This document shows, in pieces, positions 25,184-25,912 of a stretch of DNA of 64,000 nucleotides (positions within the stretch are counted from its first letter, which is position 1; the number at the start of each line of letters is the position of its first letter). The notes under the pieces were generated by a model. The model did no database searches, was not told where the DNA came from, and saw only the letters and a list, made by a program, of their open reading frames with translations. The translations under genes and the position numbers were made by a program. This DNA is from Actinomycetota bacterium (GTDB lineage Bacteria > Actinomycetota > Actinomycetes > Nanopelagicales > Nanopelagicaceae): NCBI GenBank assembly GCA_026392825.1, contig JAPLBF010000007.1, positions 1-64,000 of the forward strand. Reading direction: 5' to 3'.

Positions 25184-25522
25184 TTACACGAACGCTGCTA
25201 TGCGCGGCGGACGTCCCGCACGACGCTTGCGTTCAATGATTACGCCTTCTTCAATTAACTGTCCGCCCCAAACACCACAAGGTTCTTGGCGAGATAACGC
25301 TCCATCTAAACATTTATTGCGCACGGGGCATCCACCGCAGAGCGCTTTCGCTTGCGCAATGCCCTCATCGCTTTCCGAGAAGAAGAGCTCGGGATCAGCG
25401 TTATGGCATGGCAACGCAAAGGCGATGGCGGAGTCATACGTACCGGTCACTTCATAGAGACCGATCTTCTCGCCTGTTTCTGCCCAACCTGGTACCTGTA
25501 ATTCGCTGTAGAGAACGCTCAT
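25184..25522 (-). CDS. whiB7: WhiB-family Fe-S transcriptional regulator, WhiB7-like
   Basis: CHNADPELFF, CGGCPVRNKC, GVWGG, C-terminal AT-hook-like KRRAGRPPR; alternative GTG start at 25531. Confidence 0.88.
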   Translation of the reverse strand: MSVLYSELQVPGWAETGEKIGLYEVTGTYDSAIAFALPCHNADPELFFSESDEGIAQAKALCGGCPVRNKCLDGALSRQEPCGVWGGQLIEEGVIIERKRRAGRPPRIAAFV

Positions 25523-25570
25523 CGTTCTCACCCACTTTCTTCTCTCTCGTTTTTATTTGCTCGGGATAAT

Positions 25571-25609
25571 AAAAAAAGGCCTTCAACTCCTTTGTGGAGT
25601 TGAGGCCTT
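25571..25609 (-). terminator. strong intrinsic terminator/attenuator in whiB7 leader
   Basis: - strand AAGGCCTCAACTCCACAAAGGAGTTGAAGGCCTTTTTTTATTATC, about 14-bp stem followed by T7. Confidence 0.9.
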
Positions 25610-25629
25610 AGGTTTGGCGTCTATCGGGA

Positions 25630-25803
25630 TTATCCGATCGAACCTCCTGTGGCCTCATCCACGGCGTAAAAAGCTGCGTAAAACGCTGGCTTTGACGCTG
25701 CGGGCCAATTTGAATGCTTCTTTGTAGTCGCATGGAAATTGGCAGGCGAAGTAGCAGCACTGCGTGTAACGCGTGCTGTGGTGAATGAGTTAGATGTAAA
25801 CAT
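25630..25803 (-). CDS. upstream leader ORF of whiB7 (57 aa)
   Basis: AAAAAGGAG RBS then ATG; MFTSNSFTTARVTRSAATSPANFHATTKKHSNWPAASKPAFYAAFYAVDEATGGSIG; stops just before the attenuator. Confidence 0.7.
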   Translation of the reverse strand: MFTSNSFTTARVTRSAATSPANFHATTKKHSNWPAASKPAFYAAFYAVDEATGGSIG

Positions 25804-25912
25804 CTTTCATTCTCCTTTTTCTACTTGGCCTATTAGACCCTCACCAACTTGGTGAAAGGCAAGGGTAAACCACAGATAGAGATATTTGCAAATGAATTAA
25901 ATTGGGCAAAAG

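Follow-up and report, generated by a model that had tools for sequence, protein, structure and literature searches.

The window, that is, the whole stretch of 64,000 nucleotides analysed here, comes from an Actinomycetota bacterium of the family Nanopelagicaceae with a genome of 1.38 Mb, and the leader under study lies on its minus strand, upstream of whiB7, an antibiotic-response gene. The WhiB7 protein is 97% identical in two named relatives, Actinobacteria bacterium IMCC26103 and Candidatus Planktophila lacus, and Candidatus Planktophila are close relatives of the focal genome. In the order of transcription, the features of the locus are the following:

25862..25900, minus strand: whiB7 promoter, with TTAATT (25900-25895), 3 bp, the -35 element TTGC (25891-25888), 20 bp and the -10 element TACCCT (25867-25862)
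25812..25820, minus strand: Shine-Dalgarno (SD) sequence of the uORF, AAAAAGGAG; most leaders of the genus have an SD motif ahead of their uORF
25630..25803, minus strand: uORF MFTSNSFTTARVTRSAATSPANFHATTKKHSNWPAASKPAFYAAFYAVDEATGGSIG, 57 codons, ATG start, stop codon TAA at 25632-25630
25646..25662, minus strand: antiterminator arm 1, within the 3' end of the uORF; pairs and coevolves with 25594-25612
25616..25644, minus strand: hairpin around the uORF stop codon, the apex of the antiterminator, with the core ATCGG-ATAATC-CCGAT
25594..25612, minus strand: antiterminator arm 2, overlapping the terminator 5' arm (25609-25596)
25571..25609, minus strand: Rho-independent terminator, 14-bp stem with one bulge, 5-nt loop, T7
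25184..25531, minus strand: whiB7 (WhiB7 orthologue, Pfam Whib), start codon GTG at 25531 or ATG at 25522

The original prediction had placed a WhiB7-like gene at 25522, and actually the product of the gene starting at 25531 or 25522 matches Pfam PF02467 (WhiB) with 64 bits and carries four Cys and a GRP AT-hook core. The relatives have the four Cys, GVWGG and the GRP core, and the downstream gene has the WhiB domain, the four Cys, the GVWGG and the AT-hook of a WhiB7 orthologue. Two details of the focal protein deviate: the AT-hook core is AGRP and not RGRP, and EPWGVWGG is replaced by EPCGVWGG. EPWGVWGG is kept in all 40 genomes fetched from outside Nanopelagicaceae (46 entries, since some genomes were fetched twice), whereas within the family EPCGVWGG or EP(A/V/L/I)GVWGG is found almost throughout and the Trp is kept in 4 of around 200 redundant entries. 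In M. smegmatis the corresponding Trp has been studied under the number W65 (PMC3905903). Its apparent loss in Nanopelagicaceae is possibly less known. Three more WhiB-family genes are present elsewhere in the focal genome (G000:C10 and C6, L001-L003). Upstream of the whiB7 locus and adjacent to it lies a UvrD-like helicase gene, together with a gene that we take to be NUDIX-like, and on the other side there is a presumably ABC1-kinase-like gene, the last two being named from their sequences. In M. tuberculosis uvrD2 and whiB7 are also adjacent (PMC10272870).

For the comparisons we used three sets of leaders. The first contained 114 distinct family leaders with a uORF of at least 40 codons. 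The second, used for the swap and recoding tests, contained 45 representative leaders less than 85% identical to each other, 43 of them from Nanopelagicaceae and two (L127 and L128) from outside the family. The third contained 29 leaders from families of the same class other than Nanopelagicaceae. Furthermore, the recurrence of the promoter was checked in 11 Planktophila genomes. Three public MAG records (L137, L150, L167), titled Bifidobacterium breve or Streptomyces griseus, hold Nanopelagicaceae-like whiB7 loci, and therefore their titles look wrong.

Regarding the promoter, the motif TTAATT-N3-TTGC-N20-TACCCT starts around 12 nt past the stop codon of the helicase gene. It occurs a single time in the 1.38 Mb of the focal genome, at whiB7, and it was found at whiB7 in all the 11 Planktophila genomes searched. 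WhiB7-activated SigA promoters have an AT-rich motif just 5' of the -35 element, which the AT-hook of WhiB7 recognises (PMC3905903), and the focal promoter, with an AT-rich motif directly before its -35, fits this published layout. Judging by the -10 box, transcription would start at about 25855, around 50 nt ahead of the uORF. At this presumed 5' end of the transcript there is a small hairpin, TCACCAAGTTGGTGA, at 25841-25855, and the relatives have differing sequences with similar inverted repeats at the same site. When the focal genome was searched with the promoter motif allowing up to 3 mismatches, the counts were not above those of a reversed-pattern control, and thus a regulon beyond whiB7 itself is not apparent from this search.

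The uORF and its SD sequence lie exactly where they had been predicted, with 57 codons followed by TAA between 25803 and 25630, and the presence of a ribosome-binding site predicts that this frame is translated. In the family, a uORF of at least 40 codons is open in 114 leaders and ends around 46-55 nt ahead of the U-run, and a Rho-independent terminator stands between the uORF and whiB7 in nearly all the leaders. One could argue that the hairpin merely serves to terminate the upstream helicase gene and that the uORF is a chance open frame; indeed, from its position downstream of that gene the terminator could stop helicase transcripts too. However, the conserved WhiB7-type promoter separates the helicase gene from the uORF, the other two frames over the same interval contain 1.7 stops on average in the 114 leaders in which the uORF frame is open, and the end of the uORF coevolves with the terminator arm (see below), so we consider this explanation extremely improbable.

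The uORF had also been described as unusually long. Actually its 57 codons are ordinary, because the median is 54.5 codons (range 41-89) in Nanopelagicaceae and around 72 (43-160, with uncertain start choice) in the class. The AGGAGG noticed at 25648-25643 is present, but the proposal that it acts as an SD-like pause site did not hold, since it is not conserved and is replaced by TGGAG or TGGTGG in many relatives; these bases belong to the antiterminator. The body of the uORF has a dN/dS of 0.38-0.60 in three clades, which means moderate purifying selection, and selection of this strength does not by itself identify a stalling peptide. In 14 leaders the uORF start follows a predicted -10 box by 12-13 nt, and in a further 14 such a predicted box lies 12-15 nt ahead of an alternative in-frame start. 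With boxes this near to the start codons, around 28 uORFs look leaderless, in a family where others use an SD sequence. They include L020, L070, L094, L096-L099, L102, L106, L123-L125, L162 and L166, as well as the group L064-L084, and they occur even within one Planktophila clade (L020, L162, L166). Such apparently leaderless whiB7 uORFs are possibly less known.

The terminator proposed at 25609-25571 was confirmed, with a stem formed by 25609-25596 and 25590-25576, a T7 tail reaching 25571 and a folding energy of -22.5 kcal/mol. The competing pairing between the end of the uORF and the terminator 5' arm, originally described as 6 plus 4 bp, is real and larger. The segment GTGGATGAGGCC at 25662-25651 pairs with GGCCTCAACTCCAC through 7 plus 5 bp (25657-25651 with 25601-25607, and 25662-25658 with 25594-25598), 3 more bp (25648-25646 with 25610-25612) extend this pairing, and a 10-bp hairpin within 25644-25616 holds the stop codon of the uORF in its loop. 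The complete antiterminator fold of the focal leader comprises 25 pairs and reaches -34.5 kcal/mol. The two folds share the 5' arm of the terminator and exclude each other, as had been predicted. In the full-leader fold of the focal sequence an early-uORF segment, CUCAUUCACC, holds arm 1; this element is absent in the folds of most relatives and in that of the focal uORF alone, and we discarded it. Searched against Rfam, the leader had no match at the gathering score or at E values up to 1.

The original prediction named covariation of both helices across related genomes as a check of the switch. Column covariation on the MAFFT alignments A1 and A2 was defeated by register shifts of the helices between clades, and therefore we used alignment-free swap and recoding tests. 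RNAalifold on the gapped class alignment gave no consensus either, so the support for the fold rests on these own-versus-foreign and recoding comparisons. In the leaders with a recognised terminator, the duplex of the uORF end with the terminator 5' arm mostly lies at around -35 to -11 nt from the end of the uORF, with some exceptions. The energy of pairing of a uORF with its own arm was -23.5 kcal/mol and with foreign arms -19.0 kcal/mol, the own arm being preferred in 41 of the 45 leaders (permutation 0/5000), a swap comparison in which shared ancestry and coevolution are not fully separated. In the recoding test the real uORF paired better than the mean of its synonymous recodings in 45/45 leaders (mean z -2.15; Wilcoxon p 3e-14) and was within the best 5% or less in 29 of them; for the focal uORF just 1% of the recodings match its pairing with the arm. 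Compensatory sets can also be seen by eye, for example CTGGAG/CTCCAG, TTTGAG/CTCAAA and CCTCGAGG/CCTCGAGG.

The two halves of the stop-codon hairpin behave in the same way (own -11.8 vs foreign -9.1 kcal/mol; own better in 41/45; permutation 0/5000). All 29 class leaders have 8 or more pairs closing around the uORF stop codon, and in each of the 29 own halves beat foreign halves (-34.2 vs -26.0 kcal/mol). From these tests across 45 and 29 leaders, the end of the uORF and the terminator 5' arm make up a single long hairpin, and the stop codon lies close to the apex of this hairpin. Both the uORF frame and the alternative helix, on whose conservation in relatives the original prediction depended, are thus conserved, with 114 open frames and coevolving arms.

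We also folded the RNA that is left outside the footprint of a ribosome placed at different codons. A ribosome standing no farther than codon 33 leaves room for 16 pairs of the antiterminator ahead of the synthesis of the terminator 3' arm; one at codon 45 leaves room for 7, and one at codon 50 or beyond, or at the stop codon, for none. At equilibrium, nevertheless, a complete terminator is the favoured fold for most early stalls, and therefore we infer that antitermination must be kinetic, by trapping. RNA polymerase would start around 50 nt before the uORF and a ribosome would follow through the uORF. A ribosome that has advanced to the final twelve or so codons and the stop would cover arm 1 and open the stop-codon hairpin, thus letting the terminator form and ending transcription before whiB7. 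Ribosome-targeting drugs, or a shortage of amino acids, would hold the ribosome farther upstream and leave arm 1 and the hairpin free; these would capture the terminator 5' arm before the 3' arm exists, whiB7 would be transcribed, and WhiB7 would then probably boost its own promoter.

Ribosome-controlled attenuation of whiB7/wblC is established in Mycobacterium and Streptomyces (PMC11550727, PMC9618640, PMC13393426, PMC4128351). Those attenuators, described in Lee 2022, Dinan 2014 and Poulton 2024, reportedly have the same SD-led uORF, Rho-independent terminator, alternative antiterminator and WhiB7 orthologue, and they also share the AT-rich box before the -35; in the focal leader too, the antiterminator is formed with uORF sequence and excludes the terminator. 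What differs is the lineage, Nanopelagicaceae, which is new. The original prediction of attenuation as in mycobacterial whiB7 is therefore supported by the conserved uORF frame, the coevolving and exclusive antiterminator and the published mechanism. With this anatomy, the coevolution of both helices and the promoter motif, the leader is very probably a whiB7/wblC-type ribosome-controlled transcription attenuator of a Candidatus Planktophila genome, and from this we infer the ribosome-dependent switching, the inducers and the autoregulation of the focal whiB7.

What the ribosome senses can be read in other ways. The uORF might be a strict amino-acid attenuator, an Ala-rich sensor of charged tRNA-Ala (or of Trp or His), with antibiotic sensing being secondary in a streamlined organism. 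The family uORFs contain 21% Ala against 10.9% in the proteins of the window, Thr, Ser, His and Trp are also over-represented in them whereas Leu is scarce, and alanine starvation is reported to induce mycobacterial whiB7 (Poulton 2024, as cited in PMC11550727). However, no single-codon run is conserved at a fixed distance, a G+C-rich structured RNA by itself favours Ala codons, and stalls anywhere before around codon 45 would act alike, so that a general sensor is simpler; we regard the amino-acid reading as unlikely. Actually, trp/ilvB-type attenuators, such as ilvB1 of M. tuberculosis, likewise use the position of the ribosome in a uORF to choose between terminator and antiterminator, but their uORF is short, with a defined regulatory codon run, and the gene makes the sensed amino acid (PMC13236596).

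A drug-dependent arrest peptide acting at a fixed site, for instance a basic segment followed by Trp (K-K-H-S-N-W here), could be needed instead of any slowed ribosome. Segments of this kind are found in many uORFs of the family, and a ribosome stalled at such a segment leaves arm 1 uncovered, but the sequence and spacing of the segment vary, several Planktophila uORFs (L013, L016, L018) keep the switch while 14 codons are missing there and KRW remains, and the uORF peptides from other families have little in common apart from the C-terminus. This makes a required arrest site quite unlikely. Leaders of ARE-ABCF genes (vmlR, are5sc, tiaA) resemble the whiB7 leader in having an antibiotic-controlled uORF with a terminator and an antiterminator, but they control a resistance protein directly, their sequences are unrelated to the focal leader, and the uORFs of are5sc and tiaA encode 3 and 9 residues (PMC9226507, PMC12421871).

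The general sensor can be taken one step further. The antiterminator may be, throughout the class, one long hairpin with the uORF stop at its apex, and the switch would then read the arrival of the ribosome at termination and not the site of the stall, a proposal for which we see about equal chances of being right or wrong. If it were true, it would explain the tolerance of varied uORF peptides, lengths (around 41-160 codons) and start modes (SD-led or leaderless), as well as the breadth of inducers. The type of switch is already known from the published whiB7/wblC mechanism; here it is found in a new lineage, conserved across the family and the class and built round the uORF stop, and such a stop-codon-centred antiterminator is possibly less known. 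The comparative definition of its parts (arm 1, stop-codon apex, arm 2 and terminator) makes the arrival-at-termination model directly testable. The switch appears to let whiB7 be transcribed only upon ribosome stalling. The full whiB7 translation-stress switch is kept in a bacterial group that is among the most streamlined and most abundant in fresh water.
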